From Nostoc sp. WHI (GTDB lineage Bacteria; Cyanobacteriota; Cyanobacteriia; Cyanobacteriales; Nostocaceae), in contig NZ_WBKM01000144.1 in assembly GCF_015714725.1 (NCBI RefSeq), forward strand, positions 1-64,000: a DNA stretch of 64,000 bases, written 5' to 3'. Within the stretch, counting starts at the first letter, position 1. Each line of letters opens with the position of its first letter. This document shows positions 55,070 to 63,935 of the stretch, in pieces. The notes beneath the pieces are model-generated. The model saw only the letters and a program-made list of their open reading frames with translations. It was not told where the DNA came from and searched no databases. The translations under genes were made by a program, and so were the position numbers.

Positions 55070-55849
55070 ATGCATCAAGTACAGGGCATTTGTGGATCTA
55101 TAAAACTAGCAAATTCTACGTATATGTCCGACTGCCAAGCAAAACCTGAAACTAAGTACTTAAGTGCATCTGGTGGTAAGTGTTTAACACCGTTTCAACG
55201 GAAACTGCTACTACAAAGTTTGCACAATAGTTTACCTGAATCCTACCGCCAACGAATTGAAATCATGTTATTGGCAGATGAAGGGGAAACTCAAACAGAT
55301 ATCTGTCAAACCTTGGGATGTTGTGCAGCAACAGCACGACATTGGACACACATAGCCCGGACTGGGATGGCGCACCAATGGCAAGATTGCCCCATTGGTC
55401 GCCCGAAGGCTGTGAATGATCAGTATTTAGAGCGTTTGAAGGAATTAGTTAACAGTAGTCCTCGCGATCATGGCTATGCTTTTCGACGCTGGACAGCAAA
55501 CTGGCTTGCGAAACATCTAGCAAAGGAATTTGGCATTGAGGTAAGCGATCGCCATATCAAGCGGCTACTCAAACAGATGGGATTATCCACACTACCAAAA
55601 CCCAATAATGTTGAACAAAACAGTAATGAACAGGCTCAGGGTTCCAAAATTTTGATTTGTGACCTCAAATCGGCAGCTATTCCAGATGATTCCGAATTTT
55701 TACCTATTAACTTTGCAAAATTAGGAAAACATTTAGACATTCATGGCGCAAAATATATCTGCTCAGTTGCTTACTCTGCAACAGTTCAACAATACTCTGG
55801 GTTATTCTCTTTCAACAGAGGAATTTCAACACTGTCTTCAACAAGTTAA
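55070..55849 (+). CDS. Helix-turn-helix protein preceding the exporter
   Basis: 259 aa; may begin instead at the in-frame ATG at 55124 (MSDCQAKPETKYL). A transposase-like helix-turn-helix segment is visible: YRQRIEIMLLADEGETQTDI and CQTLGCCAATARHW, followed by a winged-helix-like half with ANWLAKHLAKEFGIEVSDRH and IKRLLKQMGLS. Proteins of this type commonly precede C39-peptidase ABC exporters in filamentous cyanobacteria, so a regulatory role is inferred. No DDE catalytic domain is present. Its 3' end overlaps the exporter gene by 107 bp in another frame, implying co-expression. Confidence 0.78.
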   Translation: MHQVQGICGSIKLANSTYMSDCQAKPETKYLSASGGKCLTPFQRKLLLQSLHNSLPESYRQRIEIMLLADEGETQTDICQTLGCCAATARHWTHIARTGMAHQWQDCPIGRPKAVNDQYLERLKELVNSSPRDHGYAFRRWTANWLAKHLAKEFGIEVSDRHIKRLLKQMGLSTLPKPNNVEQNSNEQAQGSKILICDLKSAAIPDDSEFLPINFAKLGKHLDIHGAKYICSVAYSATVQQYSGLFSFNRGISTLSSTS

Positions 55850-58463
55850 ATTTATCAATCCAAAAGTCGGCAAATTCTGGCAAGGAACTGATGCTAAAGC
55901 GGGTATATATATTGCGATCGCTGGCAAAGCAAGGTTACTAGATAGCGCCGATGAGTTAATCGCTACTTTGGAGGCGGGAGACTCATTTGGGGAATTTACC
56001 TTGTTTAAGGAGAATGACTTCAGACCTTATGCAGCAAGGGCTTCAGTCAACTTGCAACTGTGCTTTATTCCGGGTGAAGTGTTATGGCCATTGATGGCTA
56101 AATATCCCCAAATTCAGGAGCATTTGTGGGCTAAGGCACTATCCCGTAACCCCCAACACCTGGACTCAGATCAGCCTCTATCGGATTCAAAACTGCTGCA
56201 TGAAACGAAGATTTTGTCAACACCAGCAGTAGAGCCACGCGAGAAAAAGATTAGCAAAGCCTATTTTCCCAACTCCACGCAGCGAGTCGGGCATTTATTA
56301 CAACGTGCGATTCGGCGCTATCCGTTTTTTGCCCAACAGAGTGGATCAGATTGCGGTGCAGCTTGTTTAGTGATGGTGTCTCGCTATTGGGGGAAAAACT
56401 TTAGTGTAAATCGCCTGCGGGATATCGCCAATGTTGACCGTAATGGCTCATCGCTGCGGGGGTTATCGACGGCGGCGGAAAGTATTGGGTTTGCTACACG
56501 ACCGGTGAAAGCGAGTATTGACCAATTGGCAAAGCAAAAATTGCCTGCGATCGCCCACTGGGAGGGTAAGCATTACATCGTTGTCTATGAAATCACCCCA
56601 AAACAGGTAATTGTGGCAGATCCTGGTATTGGTCAGCGCACCCTCAGCCACCAGGAATTTAAAGCCAACTGGACTGGCTATACACTGCTGCTGCAACCCA
56701 CAGCCTGGTTGAAGGATGCCAAAGAGACTACAACTCCCTTTTGGCAGTTCTTTGAGTTAATGAAGCCTCACTCTTTAGTAATGCTGGAAGTGTTTGTCGC
56801 TTCCTTATTTATCCAGATTTTTGGACTCGTTACCCCCCTATTCACGCAGTTAATTTTAGACCGAGTGGTGGTGCAGCGATCTGAACTAACCTTAACGGCG
56901 GTAGGGTTAGGGTTACTGATTTTTAGTTTATTTCGTGTGGCGATGACGGGATTACGGCAATATCTGTTAGACCACACGGCGAATAAGCTCGATTTAGCAC
57001 TGATTGTGGGATTTATTCGCCATACCCTGCGGCTACCCTTGAGTTACTTTGAGTCCCGTTATGTGGGGGATATTATCTCTCGTGTACAGGAAAACCGCAA
57101 AATTCAACGCTTCCTCTCCGGTGAGGCGTTGTCCATCCTGTTGGATTTAGTCACTGTCTTTATCTATTTAGGATTGATGTTTTGGTACAGTTGGAAAATG
57201 GCGTTGCTAGTGTTGGTGATTGTACCGCCTTTTTTCCTGCTGGCAGTGATTGCCACACCTTTTTTACAAAAGATTTCTAGGGAAATCTTTAATGCTGTTG
57301 CTAATGAAAGTAGCTATCTAATTGAAGCCCTTTCTGGTGTGCGAACAGTTAAATCCACAGCAGTGGAGCAGACAGTGCGTTGGCATTGGGAAGAGTTATT
57401 AAGTAAGGAAATAAAAACTAACTTTTCCGGGCAAATTATCAGCAATCGTCTGCAAATATTCAGCAACACAATTGAAGCAGTGGTAACTACTATGTTGCTG
57501 TGGTTCGGGGCGTACCAAGTAATTCACAACCAGCTAACCATTGGTCAATTGGTAGCATTTAATATGTTGCTGGGAAATATTATTAGACCCTTCCAACGAT
57601 TAACAATTTTGTGGAATCAATTGCAAGAAGTGGTGATTGCCGTGGAACGCATTAATGATGTGTTGGATGCGGAACCAGAAGAGGATTTGCAGCACCAGGC
57701 GCGACAATCTTTACCACCCATTCAAGGTAACATTCGCTTTGACAACGTGACGTTTCGCTATCACCCTGAAAGCGATATCAATGTTTTGGAAAATCTCAGT
57801 TTTGAAATACAAAGCGGGCAAATGGTTGCCTTGGTGGGACGGAGTGGTTCGGGGAAAACCACGATTTCTAAGCTGGTTTTGGGGTTATATCCTCCCACAA
57901 ATGGCAAGGTGTTGATTGATGGTCACGATATTACCAGTCTTTCGTTGCGTTCTCTACGCGAGCAAGTTGGGGTAGTTGACCAAGATACCTTTTTGTTTGG
58001 CGGAACTATTCGGGAAAATATTAGCTTGGCACATCCTGGGGCAACTTTAGCAGAGATCATTGAGGCGGCGCGATTGGCGGGTGCTGATGAGTTTATTAAA
58101 AAGTTACCTATGGGTTATGAAACCCAGATTGGTGAAGGAGGGGGGATGTTGTCTGGAGGACAGCGACAAAGAATTGCGATCGCTAAAGCGTTGTTAGGCA
58201 ATCCTAAACTGTTGATTTTAGATGAGGCGACTTCCCATCTGGATGCAGAATCAGAAAGGATTATTCAGACGAATTTAAACACAATTCTCAAAGGCAGAAC
58301 CACCTTAGTAATTGCCCATCGCCTTTCAACTGTACGAAATGCAGATTTAATTTTGGTGCTAGATCGCGGCGTGTTGATTGAGAGTGGAACTCACCAAGAG
58401 TTGATGGCGAAGCGGGGACATTATTTTTATCTCAATCATCAGCAGTTGGATGTTGCGGGGTGA
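55743..58463 (+). CDS. cNMP-domain / C39 peptidase / ABC exporter (PCAT, HetC-like)
   Basis: 906 aa. Residues about 35-130 are a cyclic-nucleotide-binding-like domain (AGDSFGEFTLFKENDFRPYA). Residues about 190-325 are a C39 peptidase with Cys204 (GSDCGAACLVM), His277 (GKHYIVVYEI) and Asp293 (VADPGIG) all in place, so cleavage of a leader peptide is expected. Six membrane helices follow (about 345-620), then the ATPase: GRSGSGKTTISKL, LSGGQRQRIAIAKAL, LLILDEATSHLD. Such proteins cut double-glycine-type leaders and export the product. The layout matches HetC-like exporters. Adaptor (HlyD) and isomerase genes lie downstream. Confidence 0.94.
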   Translation: MAQNISAQLLTLQQFNNTLGYSLSTEEFQHCLQQVKFINPKVGKFWQGTDAKAGIYIAIAGKARLLDSADELIATLEAGDSFGEFTLFKENDFRPYAARASVNLQLCFIPGEVLWPLMAKYPQIQEHLWAKALSRNPQHLDSDQPLSDSKLLHETKILSTPAVEPREKKISKAYFPNSTQRVGHLLQRAIRRYPFFAQQSGSDCGAACLVMVSRYWGKNFSVNRLRDIANVDRNGSSLRGLSTAAESIGFATRPVKASIDQLAKQKLPAIAHWEGKHYIVVYEITPKQVIVADPGIGQRTLSHQEFKANWTGYTLLLQPTAWLKDAKETTTPFWQFFELMKPHSLVMLEVFVASLFIQIFGLVTPLFTQLILDRVVVQRSELTLTAVGLGLLIFSLFRVAMTGLRQYLLDHTANKLDLALIVGFIRHTLRLPLSYFESRYVGDIISRVQENRKIQRFLSGEALSILLDLVTVFIYLGLMFWYSWKMALLVLVIVPPFFLLAVIATPFLQKISREIFNAVANESSYLIEALSGVRTVKSTAVEQTVRWHWEELLSKEIKTNFSGQIISNRLQIFSNTIEAVVTTMLLWFGAYQVIHNQLTIGQLVAFNMLLGNIIRPFQRLTILWNQLQEVVIAVERINDVLDAEPEEDLQHQARQSLPPIQGNIRFDNVTFRYHPESDINVLENLSFEIQSGQMVALVGRSGSGKTTISKLVLGLYPPTNGKVLIDGHDITSLSLRSLREQVGVVDQDTFLFGGTIRENISLAHPGATLAEIIEAARLAGADEFIKKLPMGYETQIGEGGGMLSGGQRQRIAIAKALLGNPKLLILDEATSHLDAESERIIQTNLNTILKGRTTLVIAHRLSTVRNADLILVLDRGVLIESGTHQELMAKRGHYFYLNHQQLDVAG

Positions 58464-58576
58464 AACAAGAGGACAAGCAGGAAGCTTTTTTTGTCTCCCC
58501 ACTCCCAATACCGTTCGGATAAGATTGATCCCCCGCCTGCGGCGACCCCTTTAAAAAACAGGTAAATAGGAGACTA

Positions 58577-59043
58577 AGCCCCCCTTTTTTAAGGCTACGG
58601 TGTACACACAAGTCTGAAATTGTTCAAGAATCTGGGTTTTACCTCACCCTAACCACTGCTTGAATTCAATAAACGACCACCCGAATTCAATAAACGACCA
58701 CCCGAATTCAATAAACAACCACCCGAATTCAATAAACGACCACCCGAATTCAATAAACGACCACCCGAATTCAATAAACAACCACCCGAATTCAATAAAC
58801 GACCACCCGAATTCAATAAACGACCACCCGAAATCAATAAACGACCACCCGAAATCAATAAATGACCACCCGAAATCAATATATTTATTGCATAAATTCT
58901 TAAAACCTCACCTGAAACCTGATTTACTAAGGTTTTAGCTTTAGTTTTACCCCACCCTAACCATCACTGCGATTAAGTAGGTAATCTTTGGGATTTAAGA
59001 AGAAATTCGACTTGTGTGTACACGGTAGCTTTTTTAAGGGGGG
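58577..59043. repeat. Inverted-repeat-bounded element carrying the 21-bp repeat
   Basis: The left arm CTACGGTGTACACACAAGTC (from about 58597) pairs with GACTTGTGTGTACACGGTAG (about 59010-59029) with one difference, and outer CCCCCCTTTTTTAA pairs with TTTTTTAAGGGGGG. Inside these, CTCACCCTAACCACTGC and CCCACCCTAACCATCACTGC are related direct copies. The right arm overlaps an alternative upstream start of the HlyD gene. Confidence 0.65.
58662..58881. repeat. 21-bp tandem repeat, ten full copies (GAATTCAATAAACGACCACCC type)
   Basis: Ten full 21-bp units from 58662 to 58871 plus a partial one. Variants have ACAACC in place of ACGACC (units 3 and 6) and GAAATC in place of GAATTC (the last three). 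Period divisible by three, hence open frames on both strands, but no coding evidence. Confidence 0.93.
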
Positions 59044-59129
59044 TTGGGGGGGATCTCCGAGAGCCAAACATATTAACCGAACCGTATTGTCCCCACTCTC
59101 AAAATCAAAAATTGATATCAGGAAAAATC

Positions 59130-60653
59130 ATGCCAAACACATTGAATGGAAAGGTTCAAACCCAAATCTATGAGGTAGAACAGCGCGAGGAAATTTTAAA
59201 AGAACAAACACCAGCTAGATCAACTGATGATTGGGCTGACGCGACCAAGGATTTACTTGATAGCTTGCCCCAGGTTTGGACAAGGGGATTGCTATATTTT
59301 TTGGTAGTGTTTGTGTCGATCATTTTACCTTGGGCGATGCTATCTAAGGTAGATGAAACAGGTACGGCAAGAGGGCGACTTGAGCCAAAGGGAAAGACGG
59401 TTAGGCTGGATGCGGCTGTGGCTGGTACTGTTGCCGAAATTCGGGTAAAAGAGGGTGATTCGGTTAAAGTTGGGCAGACTTTGTTGGTATTGGAATCAGA
59501 ATTAGTTAAGGCGGAATTACGACAGGCACAGGATAAGTTAGAGGGACAATTAAATCGACTTTCTCAGTTAAATTTATCTACAAGTCAGTTAGTTGTATCT
59601 TTGACAACGCAACAGCAACAAAATCAATCTCAACAGTTGGAAAAGCAGTCTCAAATTGACCAAGCGCGACAGAATATGAATGCTCTTAGGAATTCCTATG
59701 ACTTACAAAAAGACGAAAAATTGGCTCAAGTCAATCAGGCACGACAAACTCTTGAGCATAGTCAAACTGCTAATAAATTAGTAAACAGTAGTTTGGCGAG
59801 TAACAAGCGGGAAGTTGAACGCTATCGCAGTCTTTGGCAGTCAGGGGTTATTCCAGAAATTAATGTTGTGGAAAAGCAAGATATAGCTAAAGATAAGCAA
59901 CAGTTATACGAACAAAATCAGTCAGATATTCAGCAGGCTAAACTACGTTTGGTAGAACAACAGAGTAGTTATGAGCGGACTATTCGGCAAGCAAATGCAG
60001 ATATTGAGCAGGCACAGTTGCGACTGAAAGAACAGGAAAGGAGTTATCAGACCTTGACTCGTTCTAGTAAGCTAGCTCTGCTAAGAATCGACGAGCAACA
60101 GAAGAATTTGGAGACAGAAATTACTACGCTTCAGGCAGAAATTGCTCAAAGTAAGAGTCAAATTGTTTCGTTAAAGTTTCAGTTAGGACAACGAGAGTTA
60201 AGAGCCACCGTCAATGGTAGATTGTTTCTGTTACCAATACAACGGGCTGGGTCTGTAGTGCAACCAGGAACAATGATTGCGGAGATTGCACCGCAAGGTT
60301 CGCCTTTAATAATTCGGGCGCAAATGGCGACAACTGAGAGTGGTTCTTTGCGAAAAAGATTGCCAGTCAAGTTAAAGTTTGATGCTTATCCGTTTCAGGA
60401 TTATGGAGTACTAGAAGGAGAATTGTTAGACATTTCTCCTACTACTATAGAGGTAGAAACATCTAATGGAAAGGTGGCAGCTTATGACTTGGAAATTGCC
60501 CTAAACCAAAATTGTATTCCCTCGGCTAATAAGTGTATTGCCTTGCGTCCTGGGGATACGGCGACAGCTGAGGTAATTGTACGCCAGCGTCGGATTATTG
60601 ATTTTCTGCTTGATCCGTTTAAGCAGTTGCAACAGGGTGGGGTGAAATTGTAG
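59130..60653 (+). CDS. HlyD-family membrane fusion protein
   Basis: 507 aa from the ATG at 59130; the frame is open 38 codons further up, but that part lies in the inverted repeat and has no ribosome site. One membrane helix near 60-80 (LLYFLVVFVSIILPWAML), lipoyl-like half GTARGRLEPKGKTVRLDAAV and VAGTVAEIRVKEGDSVKVGQ, a long coiled coil (about 135-345), then the second lipoyl half and beta-barrel (ELRATVNGRLFLLPIQ). It bridges the inner-membrane exporter and the outer envelope in type I secretion. Confidence 0.9.
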   Translation: MPNTLNGKVQTQIYEVEQREEILKEQTPARSTDDWADATKDLLDSLPQVWTRGLLYFLVVFVSIILPWAMLSKVDETGTARGRLEPKGKTVRLDAAVAGTVAEIRVKEGDSVKVGQTLLVLESELVKAELRQAQDKLEGQLNRLSQLNLSTSQLVVSLTTQQQQNQSQQLEKQSQIDQARQNMNALRNSYDLQKDEKLAQVNQARQTLEHSQTANKLVNSSLASNKREVERYRSLWQSGVIPEINVVEKQDIAKDKQQLYEQNQSDIQQAKLRLVEQQSSYERTIRQANADIEQAQLRLKEQERSYQTLTRSSKLALLRIDEQQKNLETEITTLQAEIAQSKSQIVSLKFQLGQRELRATVNGRLFLLPIQRAGSVVQPGTMIAEIAPQGSPLIIRAQMATTESGSLRKRLPVKLKFDAYPFQDYGVLEGELLDISPTTIEVETSNGKVAAYDLEIALNQNCIPSANKCIALRPGDTATAEVIVRQRRIIDFLLDPFKQLQQGGVKL

Positions 60654-60700
60654 AAAACTTAACCCCCTTCCTTGTGTCCAAGGGACATAGGAATTGGAAA

Positions 60701-60730
60701 TGTAGAGACGTTACATGTAATGTCTCTACA
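60701..60730. repeat. Dispersed palindrome between HlyD and PpiC genes
   Basis: TGTAGAGACGTTACA / TGTAATGTCTCTACA is a near-perfect 30-bp palindrome of the same general type as those at 4.1 and 9.8 kb; it could form an mRNA hairpin between the two genes. Confidence 0.7.
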
Positions 60731-60790
60731 TCTAGCCAATAAGTCATGCTCTCATGTTTAATTTTGCTAACCAAATTTAGGAGAAATATA

Positions 60791-61537
60791 ATGCTACAAA
60801 CTATCACTATTACTAACAAAGATATTCTTCAGCAAGTTAAGTTATCTTACAAAATTCCTGAAATAGTTGAGCAGATTATTAGCCGCAAAGTGATTAGAAC
60901 TGCTGCGGAAGAAGCTGGGATAAAAATAGATACAGAAGAATTACAAAAAACAGCAGACTTATTCCGCTTAATAAATAAACTCACAAGTGCTGAAGAGACT
61001 TGGGAATGGCTAGAAAAATATGGGTTGTCCTTAGATGACTTTGAAGAAATCGTATATAACAGTATTCTTATTAGTAAGTTAAGCCAACATCTATTCATAG
61101 ATAAAATCGAACCTTATTTTTTTGAACATCAGCTAGACTATGCTGGTGTGGTAATGTATGAGGTTGTGTTGGATGATGAAGACTTAGCGCTAGAACTTTT
61201 CTATGCTATTAAAGAAGGTGAGATGAGTTTCTATGATGTTGGTCATAAATACATTCAGGATACAGAGTTACGCCGTTCTGGAGGATATAAAGGAATGGTG
61301 TTCCGCGACTCACTGAAGCCAGAAATTTCTGCTGCTGTTTTTACTGCTAAACCACCGGAGCTTATCAAACCAATTTTGACTTCTAAGGGAGTACACTTGA
61401 TTTTAGTTGAGGAGATTACTCAATCGCAATTGAATGACAAGTTGTACCAAGAAATTTATTCACATCTGTTTTCTGAATGGTTAAAGCAACAAATTGCAAA
61501 AATTGAGGTTATTAAGCACTGGAACGACCTTAGCTGA
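60791..61537 (+). CDS. PpiC-type peptidyl-prolyl isomerase
   Basis: 248 aa from the ATG at 60791, preceded by AGGAG; an upstream in-frame ATG (60746) gives an unlikely hydrophobic extension. The N-terminal 120 residues are helical and SurA-like, and a parvulin domain follows (about 130-225): FYDVGHKYIQDTELRRSGGY, KGMVFRDSLKPEIS and ILTSKGVHLILVEEI. No signal peptide, so it acts in the cytoplasm as read. Prolyl isomerases of this kind are regularly encoded with C39-ABC exporters and HlyD in cyanobacteria, perhaps as chaperones for exported peptides. Confidence 0.88.
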   Translation: MLQTITITNKDILQQVKLSYKIPEIVEQIISRKVIRTAAEEAGIKIDTEELQKTADLFRLINKLTSAEETWEWLEKYGLSLDDFEEIVYNSILISKLSQHLFIDKIEPYFFEHQLDYAGVVMYEVVLDDEDLALELFYAIKEGEMSFYDVGHKYIQDTELRRSGGYKGMVFRDSLKPEISAAVFTAKPPELIKPILTSKGVHLILVEEITQSQLNDKLYQEIYSHLFSEWLKQQIAKIEVIKHWNDLS

Positions 61538-61592
61538 GTTCTTATCTTAAAGTTGAACCTTGAGTTTTATTGAGTTTAACAGCTCTATTGGC

Positions 61593-61626
61593 TTACACAC
61601 CATTGGATGTAAACAATGGTGTGTAA
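61593..61626. terminator. Bidirectional hairpin in the HopA1 gene 3' end
   Basis: Perfect 13-bp stem TTACACACCATTG / CAATGGTGTGTAA with an 8-base loop. It lies between the convergent isomerase and HopA1 genes and includes the stop codon and last ten codons of the HopA1 gene. No long T-run on either side, so it may be a transcript end or an mRNA-stabilising structure. Confidence 0.6.
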
Positions 61627-62651
61627 ATATCTTCAGAATTAGGATTGAGATAGGGACTCTCGAGGTCAATTTCCAGATCCTTGAAATGCTGGCGTATGTA
61701 TTTCATTCTAGCCTCTGGAGATTCATCACTATTGTTATGAGCGTCGAGCAAGGCATTGGCAACAATTTTGCAGCGGTTCATGCCAAAATCTTCCAGAAAT
61801 CTAAATTCTTTTTCAGGTCTTTCTGCTAAAGCCAGCCCTGGCGCAAGCACTTTAGTGAATATAGGAACATGAGTTTGAAAGTGGGATTCATTTTCTGCGT
61901 AAACAGTCTGTAGTACTTGCCGAACTACTTCGTAGCTATCCTTATTAATTCGTAAAATTCCTGAGTTATATCGCCCATAGCTAGAGGGATTGTACAAGGC
62001 ATTGAAGTCGAAAGGAATCTTAATTGCATTTAATTGCTTTGTTAGATGTCCCATTAGTGCAACTGCACCTTTAGGACTGAAGTTAAAGTAGATATACACT
62101 GATGGATAACTCCAAGTATAAACTAAGTCCCCATAAGCTATATAAAATTGATTTCTGATGTGACTAGATGGCCTAGGTATTGACACCATATCACCTATCG
62201 CAGCTGATTGCTCTTCTAACCTAAGATGATGGTCTCGCTGGATGTGTATTGTAATACCTTTCTTTTCAACTGCGAGACTGCCATCAGCTTCCTGTCTTAG
62301 GACACGAAAGTTTGGATTCCAAGAACCTTTACCGTAATTGTTTTTATGTAGTTTGTCACAGAATTCCCAGTCTACTTCGCAAGGGGTATCCTCTAATCCA
62401 ATTTCATAATTTATCTGTGTTAATTGATTTTTTTTTAGTAAAGATTCTCCACTGTAGTAAATGCCAAAGATTAATTTTTGCAGAAGTGATATAAGGTACT
62501 CATCTTGAACATTTTGAGGCAGTTTTTGAAGCTGTGCCAGAACATCAGCAGGTATTTTTTGCTGCTGAAACTTAGGATGAATGACCACAAAATTATAAGA
62601 TTCAATTTCAATTTGACTGGCAAGCTCTTGAAGTATTTGTAGCACTTGCAT
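61593..62651 (-). CDS. HopA1-family protein (putative phospho-Ser/Thr lyase partner)
   Basis: 352 aa. Fits the type III effector HopA1 family found in many bacterial peptide gene clusters: FRVLRQEADGSLAVEKKGIT, AAIGDMVSIPRPSSHIRNQF and FYIAYGD, then YIYFNFSPKGAVALMGHLTK, TKVLAPGLALAERP and FGMNRCKIVANALLDAH. In thioviridamide-type and class V lanthipeptide pathways a HopA1-like protein works with a phosphotransferase-like kinase to dehydrate Ser/Thr, presumably by eliminating phosphate. Second gene of a minus-strand operon, 87 bp after the kinase. No secretion signal; this organism has no visible type III system here, so an effector role is unlikely. Confidence 0.82.
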   Translation of the reverse strand: MQVLQILQELASQIEIESYNFVVIHPKFQQQKIPADVLAQLQKLPQNVQDEYLISLLQKLIFGIYYSGESLLKKNQLTQINYEIGLEDTPCEVDWEFCDKLHKNNYGKGSWNPNFRVLRQEADGSLAVEKKGITIHIQRDHHLRLEEQSAAIGDMVSIPRPSSHIRNQFYIAYGDLVYTWSYPSVYIYFNFSPKGAVALMGHLTKQLNAIKIPFDFNALYNPSSYGRYNSGILRINKDSYEVVRQVLQTVYAENESHFQTHVPIFTKVLAPGLALAERPEKEFRFLEDFGMNRCKIVANALLDAHNNSDESPEARMKYIRQHFKDLEIDLESPYLNPNSEDIYTPLFTSNGV

Positions 62652-62738
62652 GACTATTAATCCTGATGTTATTTAACTGTTTCAATATGCTTTTACCCAT
62701 AAACTGGTCAAAATTTTGAACCGTAACCTAGCCAGAAG

Positions 62739-63935
62739 TTAAGGTAATTTCAAAGCTTTTAGCCAATCAGCTTCCGTCATCCCAAAAATAGAGCTAAATG
62801 ATTTTTCTGGTTGGCATAGCAACCTTTTAGCCAATTGAAGTATGCAAATTTGCCTATGATCAAATGCTTCAAATGACTGAATTCTTGCTATAATTTTGTA
62901 GAGTAAGGCAAGACCAGTAAACTGGACAACTCGACTAAGGAAATCAGGAAATTCCTCTAGAACTTTGGGGAAACTACTAATGTAAGAGCTAGTGAGGGTG
63001 ACAACTGAAGGTTGAACCGCTTCTAAAGGTATTATAGCTAGCTTAAGAGATTCCTCCAATTTAATAGCAGGATGAATAATTAAACTTTCCAGCCATAACA
63101 ACAAATAACCAGCGATCGCTGTCCCTACATCAAAAGCTGGATCGCCCCAGCTACATTTATCCCAGTTAATAAGCTTAATAATCCTCTCATTAGACCTCTC
63201 AATTTTAGACAAAATTCCCTCACCTGACCGGGGAATTAAAATGTTATTTAACTCATACCCGTTATGAGTTAGGCAGTAGTGATTATGAGTAGCTACAAGC
63301 TCTGTAACTGTAGATTGTAAGTTTTCACAGTTGTGATAAAAAGACATAAATATATTGCCTTCTGGGGGATACTCTTGAGTTAAAATCTCTGGCTTAAGTC
63401 TACCTAATAAATGACTTGGATGAGGAAATTGATAGTAACATTTGCCATCAACTGCTTCCTCATTTAGGAAATCACAGCAATTCTGGCAATTTAAAGTTTC
63501 GCGATGTAAGTTTGCTAGAGTAATACCCATTAACTCTGCTATTGCTATAGGAAAGCTTTTGTTTTTTTTGTAATGACTTTCTAAATTAATGTAGTTATCT
63601 GATTGTTTGTAAATTAGAATAGAATTGATATCATCAAAATGAAGTATTTCTAATAACAAAGAATAAATTTGAGATAAATTTGGCAAAGATTGCAAAAATT
63701 TATGAAGCCGCCACTCACAATTAATTATGTTGGTTTTTTTATTATCGTAGTGATGAGAATCCTGCTTAACAAATAGTTGTTGACCACTGGGTAGATGGAT
63801 CGTTAAAAAAATTAAATTATTGCTGCCTTGGCTACATTTAGGTTTAATATTAATTAATTCTATATCCTGTTCTTCGGAAAGACTAACCTCAAGTAAGTAT
63901 TGAGATACATTGTTAGAGTTTAGCTTAGTTGTCAT
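62739..63935 (-). CDS. Aminoglycoside-phosphotransferase-like kinase, altered active site
   Basis: 398 aa from the ATG at 63935 (AGG site before it); a TTG at 63968 is in frame. Kinase-like fold: Lys57 in QQLFVKQD, a Glu in NCEWRLHKFLQSL, catalytic-loop equivalent LTHNGYELNNILI and metal-loop equivalent IKLINWDKCSWGDPAFDVG. In active phosphotransferases these read HGD and (I)DWE. Here they are His224-Asn225-Gly226 and Asn257-Trp-Asp259, so the catalytic Asp and the first metal Asp are changed, while Asn231 and GDPAFD are kept. With HopA1 it should act on Ser/Thr of a precursor peptide; activity is uncertain. First gene of the operon. Confidence 0.75.
   Translation of the reverse strand: MTTKLNSNNVSQYLLEVSLSEEQDIELINIKPKCSQGSNNLIFLTIHLPSGQQLFVKQDSHHYDNKKTNIINCEWRLHKFLQSLPNLSQIYSLLLEILHFDDINSILIYKQSDNYINLESHYKKNKSFPIAIAELMGITLANLHRETLNCQNCCDFLNEEAVDGKCYYQFPHPSHLLGRLKPEILTQEYPPEGNIFMSFYHNCENLQSTVTELVATHNHYCLTHNGYELNNILIPRSGEGILSKIERSNERIIKLINWDKCSWGDPAFDVGTAIAGYLLLWLESLIIHPAIKLEESLKLAIIPLEAVQPSVVTLTSSYISSFPKVLEEFPDFLSRVVQFTGLALLYKIIARIQSFEAFDHRQICILQLAKRLLCQPEKSFSSIFGMTEADWLKALKLP

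Follow-up and report, generated by a model that had tools for sequence, protein, structure and literature searches.

A kinase and a HopA1 protein encoded side by side in Nostoc sp. WHI lack catalytic residues of the LanK/LanY-type (class V) lanthipeptide dehydratases, and a second, intact kinase-HopA1 pair lies on the same contig. The degenerate pair is found near the end of the 64,000-nucleotide stretch of contig NZ_WBKM01000144.1 analysed here, which we call the window (the first 64,000 bases of contig C311, which is 75,685 bases long, in a genome of 8.6 Mb); the intact pair lies just past the window edge. We refer to the window-type genes as w (KINw and HopA1w) and to the intact, outside-type genes as b (KINb and HopA1b). 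The w pair is not decaying: it is conserved and kept under purifying selection, and the presence of cysteine in neighbouring precursor cores goes with it, an association that is suggestive. An earlier note had proposed a candidate peptide maturation and export locus in the window, in which this kinase and HopA1 protein carry out dehydration. That interpretation is partly supported by our analysis: catalytic residues, whose loss the note did not mention, are absent here and in every orthologue row examined, and it is the pair outside the window that retains them.

The intact pair of this contig reads RKRY at the lyase site and HND and IDW in the kinase motifs, whereas the window pair reads YNRR, HNG and INW at the same positions, leaving HopA1w without three of four lyase residues and KINw without its catalytic Asp. 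In terms of class V enzymes, KINb has the catalytic Asp and metal-binding residues of a LanK and HopA1b the Arg, Lys, Arg and Tyr of a LanY, and neither set is complete in KINw or HopA1w. Our statements on published systems draw on parts of the cited accounts. One of these reports that CaoY changed at Lys219, Arg187 or Arg229 eliminates phosphate not at all, hardly or more slowly, and that Tyr236 is conserved as well (PMC9486802). The alignment of HopA1b to the solved LxmY (PDB 9dk1 chain B, E 9e-12) places the Lys, Arg and Tyr of the two proteins opposite each other, and that of the b-type kinase profile to LxmK (9dk1 chain A) does so for the HxD and DW aspartates; a single-sequence PDB search with KINb missed LxmK, which the KINb profile recovered. 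KINw and KINb are close paralogues, with 40% identity over 382 aligned columns, and a tblastn search of plasmids with KINw returned three records at 22-38% identity.

The loss of the kinase Asp and of the lyase Arg and Tyr recurs in every w row examined. In a first survey, both aspartates were present in 79/79 b-type kinases and RKRY in 81/81 b-type HopA1 proteins, whereas the catalytic Asp was found in 0/10 w kinases and the first Arg or the Tyr in 0/10 w HopA1 proteins (two of the ten w rows come from one genome); the lyase Lys was retained in five of ten HopA1w rows. We then consider a non-redundant set without the duplicate or truncated L093, L117 and L042 and the divergent L123, L124, L125, L126, L129 and L136. 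Here Asp237 is lost in 12/12 KINw, replaced by Asn in 11 and by Gly in the window kinase, and retained in 81/81 b-type rows used for comparison. Likewise, the HopA1w Arg is lost in 12/12 rows, as is Tyr251, which becomes Arg, Gln or Lys. The ATP-binding Lys (K70) is retained in at least 90% of the 12 KINw rows and aligns with Lys66 of LxmK, in a weak part of the alignment. The w kinases further carry two marker changes, Y166C in 11/12 and S292H in 10/12 rows, corresponding to Cys at residue 164 and His at residue 299 of the window kinase. Of the positions invariant in b proteins, 46/125 in the kinase and 48/121 in HopA1 are also unchanged in 90% or more of the w rows.

Phylogeny and substitution rates indicate that the pair is maintained as such. 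In quick, unrooted trees, the w kinases and the w HopA1 proteins each form one side of a single branch, with Shimodaira-Hasegawa-like approximate likelihood-ratio test (SH-aLRT) values of 98 and 100, respectively. In five locus pairs, the w genes have a ratio of nonsynonymous to synonymous substitution rates (dN/dS; Nei-Gojobori method, where several of the dS values exceed 1) of 0.25-0.38, vs 0.14-0.23 for the b genes. A search with a w-kinase profile over 388 genomes of the order, from which 30 loci were classified, placed KINw in six genomes, a lower bound. An intact HopA1 gene lies on the same contig within ~12 kb in 6/6 of the genomes with KINw, and an intact kinase gene is on that contig too in 5/6; in the sixth, G360, the contig ends first. 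Named genera with the w pair are Komarekiella, Roholtiella, Calothrix, Moorena, Mastigocoleus and Brasilonema. Presence of the pair requires seven changes on the b-kinase tree, which suggests that it is gained and lost as a module. Four of the six w genomes, the window's included, have no LanC-like match (one of the four is 87% complete). In the window's own genome (390 contigs, 99.49% complete) there is no match to LanC (PF05147), the class Vb trait. In two w loci, a gene for a luciferase-like oxidoreductase lies downstream of HopA1w (L064 4699-5628 and L113 15374-16300); its product might reduce dehydro-residues, like the reductase of lexapeptide-type pathways.

The genomic setting of the intact pair was surveyed in 80 named loci, the best 80 of 356 confirmed matches to intact HopA1, a choice that skews them to close relatives and gives each a b-type HopA1 by construction. 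Among them, 79 have a kinase beside HopA1, 50 a complete trio of PpiC, HlyD and C39 exporter genes, and 74 one or more precursors of the family. The co-occurrence raised in the earlier note recurs in the 47 loci with full 10-kb flanks: the kinase is present in all 47, the trio in 38 and one precursor or more in 45. The linkage of kinase-HopA1 genes with a leader-cutting exporter that the note proposed is thus supported; dehydration by the window's own pair is not, and such chemistry had already been proposed for cyanobacteria (PMC8153245, PMC9486802). As a control, we examined a related pair of Nostocaceae, KINc/HopA1c (L007 5623-8029, on genome contig C192, L118-L121 and L132-L135): eight loci contained no precursor among 1,071 open reading frames (ORFs) and no HlyD or PpiC match, and two of them a short, weak ABC match. 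In this related pair, KINc keeps HND in 9/9 rows, with the second Asp lost in L121 and L133, and HopA1c lacks the catalytic Lys in 9/9 rows (Gln or Glu instead); KINc ends in a conserved tail like YYEKTRLRGC, and this tail may be a docking peptide or even a substrate.

Tailoring genes of different kinds occupy the interval from the b pair to the exporter: in some loci an aldo/keto reductase accompanied by a second PpiC, in others an NHL-repeat protein, a class II LanM (TIGR03897, 962.9 bits) or the w pair. ORFs of LanM size (~1,075 aa) have their locus and precursor leader family in common with an intact kinase-HopA1 pair in L055, L056, L075, L077, L079, L085 and L122; the one tested (L056) is a class II LanM. 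These loci apparently combine two dehydration systems in one cluster.

To relate the w pair to its putative substrates, we scored as w-linked any precursor encoded between the intact HopA1 and KINw (in L042, at most 1.5 kb upstream of KINw), omitting cores shorter than 8 aa or with masked bases (one masked precursor, L113). The count covered 12 w loci, of which L117 duplicates the L064 contig and L092 and L093 belong to one genome; distinct cores were counted. Cys occurs in 10/10 distinct w-linked cores vs 59/163 cores of loci without w or LanM (Fisher p 6.7e-5), and at least two Cys in 8/10 vs 14/163 (p 7e-7). Three more loci (L167, L168 and L170) contributed four cores, all with Cys and three with at least two, bringing the total to 14/14 readable distinct w-linked cores. 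Counted per locus, without LanM loci or loci lacking a usable core and with L042 represented by the core beside KINw only, any Cys is found in 12/12 w loci vs 31/55 (p 0.003) and at least two Cys in 10/12 vs 9/55 (p 1.8e-5). L042 and L169 are apparently one contig; in L042, two Cys are present in the core next to the w pair, and none or one in those next to the reductase module. More distant precursors were not scored as w-linked, and some lack Cys (for example one each in L064 and the window's own cluster); a looser count that takes in every precursor of a w locus as far as the exporter gives 18 with Cys and 3 without. Cores linked to LanM have at least two Cys in 21/21 cases.

Together, these data suggest a working model for the locus, which we regard with high confidence as a class V-type (LanK/LanY) peptide cluster of cyanobacteria that includes a dedicated exporter able to cut leaders. 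Judging from their intact residues, the KINb-HopA1b pair at 65,856-68,177 would phosphorylate Ser and Thr in the precursor core (gene at 64,291-64,464) and then eliminate the phosphate, leaving dehydro-residues. The window pair, a catalytically dead paralogue complex, would next serve as a non-catalytic complex for Cys-containing cores, a role that we infer, as we do the cause of the Cys association itself. It may bind the same leader, since it is a paralogue of a complex whose relative RosK-RosY binds its leader best when complexed. Most likely it would hold the dehydrated core while a Cys thiol adds to an upstream dehydro-residue, taking the place of a LanC cyclase. Finally, as its domains predict, the C39 domain of the exporter would cut after Gly-Gly, the ABC-HlyD machinery would export the product and PpiC would aid its folding. 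Some functional role of the dead pair as a non-catalytic partner is probable, and we lean, narrowly, towards the whole chain with such a partner in it, ring closure left aside. Ring closure, one of the roles such a partner could have, is a tentative and rather doubtful assignment. A touch more doubtful is the fullest version of the proposal, in which a duplicated dehydratase with both partners dead has been kept across cyanobacterial families as a LanC-free ring closer for Cys peptides, perhaps with a new site; such a site would possibly include the w-specific Cys164 and His299 of the window kinase. In rosin biosynthesis, lanthionine closure is moderately accelerated by the live RosK-RosY complex, and formation of the aminovinyl-methylcysteine (AviMeCys) ring is controlled by RosX, which resembles a kinase but lacks the catalytic residues (~17% identical to LxmK) (PMC12291118); both halves of the proposal therefore have a precedent.

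Several observations weigh against this model. A phylogeny-controlled sign test of the Cys association, underpowered at three independent pairs, was not significant, and LANC proteins of LanM size are encoded elsewhere, on other contigs, in two of the six w genomes. The spacing Ser/Thr-x2-4-Cys, which would suit rings, occurs in 14/14 w-linked cores vs 8.6 expected from shuffling, and also in 51/62 Cys-bearing cores without a w pair vs 29 expected. We therefore dropped it as w-specific evidence, the control cores being equally biased, and the live pair may make rings unaided. In each protein, 13 b-invariant positions are absent from every w row, so the losses extend past the active sites, and the retained ATP-binding Lys means that KINw may still bind ATP. 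Nor is the loss of lyase residues unique to the w context, since it also occurs outside the w clade, in the KINc/HopA1c pairs and in L125, L129 and L136, the three of ten HopA1b-labelled rows in a further locus set that lack RKRY (7/10 have it).

The same evidence bears on other roles for the pair. One, which would still make it a partner of the live pair but with no part in ring closure, is that of a chaperone or an allosteric subunit, tuning how the leader is bound, which sites are chosen or in what order they are phosphorylated. This would be consistent with the presence of the intact HopA1, or of the whole intact pair, on the w contig in all six genomes of the order survey, with the many retained fold residues and with the report that RosK-RosY complex formation enhances leader binding (PMC12291118); most b pairs nevertheless do without KINw, which is not in the available stretch of 70/80 named loci, and the Cys link would be left unexplained. 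We consider this arrangement possible, but on balance unlikely. That the window pair still dehydrates with unusual residues, perhaps on a second class of precursor, would fit the purifying selection, the ATP-binding Lys of KINw and the lyase Lys in half of the HopA1w rows. It is improbable given that the HxD Asp is gone from every KINw row and the lyase Arg and Tyr from every HopA1w row examined, and that elimination by CaoY is lost or nearly so when its Lys or Arg is changed (PMC9486802). Poorer still is the case for a decaying duplicate on its way to becoming a pseudogene. The w genes do evolve faster, with a dN/dS 1.3 to 2.5 times that of the b pair in the five locus pairs and longer branches in the kinase tree, but open frames in several families, a single group in each tree, near-uniform replacements and a dN/dS well below 1 make decay very improbable.

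A further question is whether the exporter trio and the kinase-HopA1 genes belong together at all, or are separate neighbouring modules, the trio serving many unrelated double-Gly peptides. The two sets of genes converge and are not co-transcribed, a spliceotide cassette and other peptides share the cluster, and exporter-HlyD-SurA clusters have been described in a main text that mentions neither kinase nor HopA1 (Wang 2011, PMC3140520). Set against this are the trio within 10 kb in 38/47 full-flank loci and the absence of HlyD and PpiC from all eight KINc/HopA1c loci, two of which have the weak ABC match, and we regard separate modules as distinctly unlikely.

Much of this cluster has been described before. 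Family 1A of Eyles 2021 comprises 570 peptides in 183 clusters, from cyanobacteria only, with double-Gly leaders and genes beside HopA1 and phosphotransferase genes (PMC8153245); type-B putative LanA ORFs, all cyanobacterial, are noted in Liang 2022 (PMC9486802), distant cyanobacterial pairs are mentioned in Kloosterman 2020 (PMC7794033), and cyanobacterial bacteriocin clusters with exporter, HlyD and SurA appear in Wang 2011 (PMC3140520). The published description of Family 1A and type-B matches what we find here, a HopA1-phosphotransferase neighbourhood, short double-Gly peptides and a variable core, and the cluster as a whole therefore belongs to a known type. Family 1A likewise combines a cyanobacterial kinase and HopA1 with a conserved double-Gly leader, variable cores and several precursors per cluster; its cores, however, are said to have no conserved Ser, Thr or Cys, whereas here Cys accompanies the degenerate pair, and the main account makes no mention of a catalytically degenerate second pair (PMC8153245). 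The clusters of Wang 2011 share the C39 transporter, HlyD, SurA/rotamase and double-Gly peptides and differ in that the words kinase and HopA1 do not occur in the main text. Among the class V dehydratases CaoK-CaoY, LxmK-LxmY and RosK-RosY, the intact pair shares the kinase and lyase residues of LxmK and LxmY (PMC9486802, PMC12291118; PDB 9dk1), but the cluster, described here from its genes, would export through C39-ABC-HlyD, and both KINb (82.1 bits) and KINw (36.5 bits) fall under the NCBIfam LxmK equivalog cut-off of 315 bits.

The closest parallel to KINw is offered by the LanX cyclases (RosX, TvaE and ThoE), in which a kinase fold without its Asp stands by a live kinase-lyase pair and acts on Cys-containing peptides. 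KINw lacks the catalytic Asp as they do, but keeps the ATP-binding Lys that they lack. It further differs from them in its close paralogy to the local LanK and in having a dead lyase for a partner, one that the consulted part of the rosin account does not describe (PMC12291118). We found no mention of a degenerate LanK/LanY pair in the literature covered, which consisted mainly of open main texts, with supplements and most subscription papers outside it. What is new here is a conserved degenerate kinase-HopA1 pair within a described type of cluster.

The features of the locus are listed in Table 1, in which positions past 64,000 continue the window numbering to the contig end at 75,685.

Table 1. 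Features of the kinase-HopA1 locus in the window and on the rest of contig C311.
Feature	Position	Strand	Matches and remarks
Helix-turn-helix (HTH) protein, IS630-like DNA-binding part	55070..55849	+	Pfam HTH_32/HTH_33
cNMP-C39-ABC exporter / leader peptidase	55743..58463	+	Peptidase_C39 (E 4.7e-42), ABC_membrane, ABC_tran
HlyD adaptor	59130..60653	+	HlyD_3, Biotin_lipoyl_2; longest ORF starts at 59016 (GTG)
PpiC-type protein	60746..61537	+	Rotamase (2.2e-8); related to TIGR04500 peptide maturation proteins
HopA1w, pseudo-LanY	61593..62651	-	PF17914 (E 9e-56); lyase-site R, K, Y replaced by Y, N, R
KINw, pseudo-LanK	62739..63935	-	HND to HNG, IDW to INW; ATP-binding Lys retained
Double-Gly precursor, 57 aa	64,291-64,464	-	Core RASGVQVTVVASCACQAQR; leader hidden Markov model (HMM)
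HopA1b, second HopA1	65,856-66,938	-	PF17914, 218.7 bits
KINb, second kinase	66,966-68,177	-	LxmK 82.1 bits, APH 40.6 bits
66-aa ORF adjoining PlpX	68,140-68,340	-	No family match
Radical SAM protein, PlpX-type	68,342-69,664	-	TIGR04103, 838.7 bits vs cut-off 725
Two Nif11 precursors	69,709-70,008 and 70,163-70,495	-	PYG, LYG and MYG motifs
Further short peptides, one of 72 aa with a core without Cys	71,944-72,162 (72-aa peptide)	-	72-aa peptide matches leader model

On the exporter side, the arrangement given in the earlier note, a C39-ABC exporter, HlyD and PpiC facing a kinase-HopA1 operon, was borne out by the ORFs and their Pfam matches. The exporter has a cyclic-nucleotide-binding (cNMP-binding) domain at its N-terminus and the C39 triad Cys204, His277 and Asp293 in place, together with the ABC membrane and ATPase domains of a C39 peptidase exporter. 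The first ORF of the interval given in the note is not part of the exporter; it overlaps the exporter ORF and is a separate HTH gene. The product of this gene aligns only with positions 1-134 of 299 in the IS630 model, that is, with its N-terminal part, and a homologue lies directly 5' of 38/39 named exporters with room for one. We therefore discarded the reading of an insertion-sequence remnant, the ORF being kept upstream of the exporter across loci; its sequence points to a domesticated DNA-binding protein that is a probable regulator of the exporter operon. The PpiC protein scores 71.3 bits against TIGR04500, under the cut-off of 180. Between the exporter and HlyD genes lies a tandem array with a 21-bp unit (10.5 copies, 96% match, window 58662-58881), which is open in several frames and not precursor-like. 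As for the kinase-HopA1 genes, the HMM searches confirmed HopA1 but gave no Pfam match for KINw at E 1e-3 and a weak score against the class V LxmK model.

The forecast that a precursor would lie beyond 64,000 proved right: the leader HMM found no family precursor among the window's 477 ORFs of at least 30 aa (best E 0.84), and a double-Gly peptide is encoded 0.3 kb past the window edge. In its core, Ser and Thr stand upstream of two Cys; the core ends in CACQAQR rather than in the C-terminal Cys, a LanD substrate, that is a class Va trait. Cysteine decarboxylase (LanD) was not among the Pfam matches of the scanned cluster genes, with no dedicated search made. The precursor profile matched no other site in the genome at E <0.1, aside from a duplicate contig, whose first 20 kb are an identical, reversed copy of the contig end. 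Two short plus-strand ORFs (178 and 135 aa) lie between the two kinase-HopA1 pairs (L005 4986-5859, in C311), and ORFs of similar size occupy the same slot in L042, L046 and L050; possibly, and this is a guess, they are a toxin-antitoxin pair.

The genes beyond KINb form a second cassette in the same cluster as the LanK/LanY-type genes (C311 68140-70495; L005 8140-10495). Pleurocapsa PlpXY acts at XYG motifs, naturally MYG and LYG (PMC10533398), and we therefore read the cassette, with its TIGR04103 radical SAM protein and XYG motifs in the Nif11 precursors, as a spliceotide locus. It resembles the PlpXY pathway in both respects and differs in sharing a cluster with LanK/LanY-type genes; a PlpX ORF of more than 300 aa is present in 15/80 named HopA1 loci. 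Long ORFs were seen in distant cyanobacteria: L128 9754-12210 (819 aa) matches both kinase and HopA1 and is therefore a kinase-lyase fusion, and L127 7916-10402 (829 aa) encodes a HopA1 protein with a long extra region, adjoining a separate kinase.

Class V ring closure without LanC is only partly understood, in the accounts cited here, as a matter of substrate control and kinase-lyase help, with RosX acting for AviMeCys. A conserved complex whose kinase and lyase have each lost catalytic residues would split the binding role from the chemistry, and would therefore make the question of ring closure directly testable. The w pair is, besides, a paired pseudoenzyme from nature and a possible handle for finding Cys-bearing peptides of cyanobacteria.

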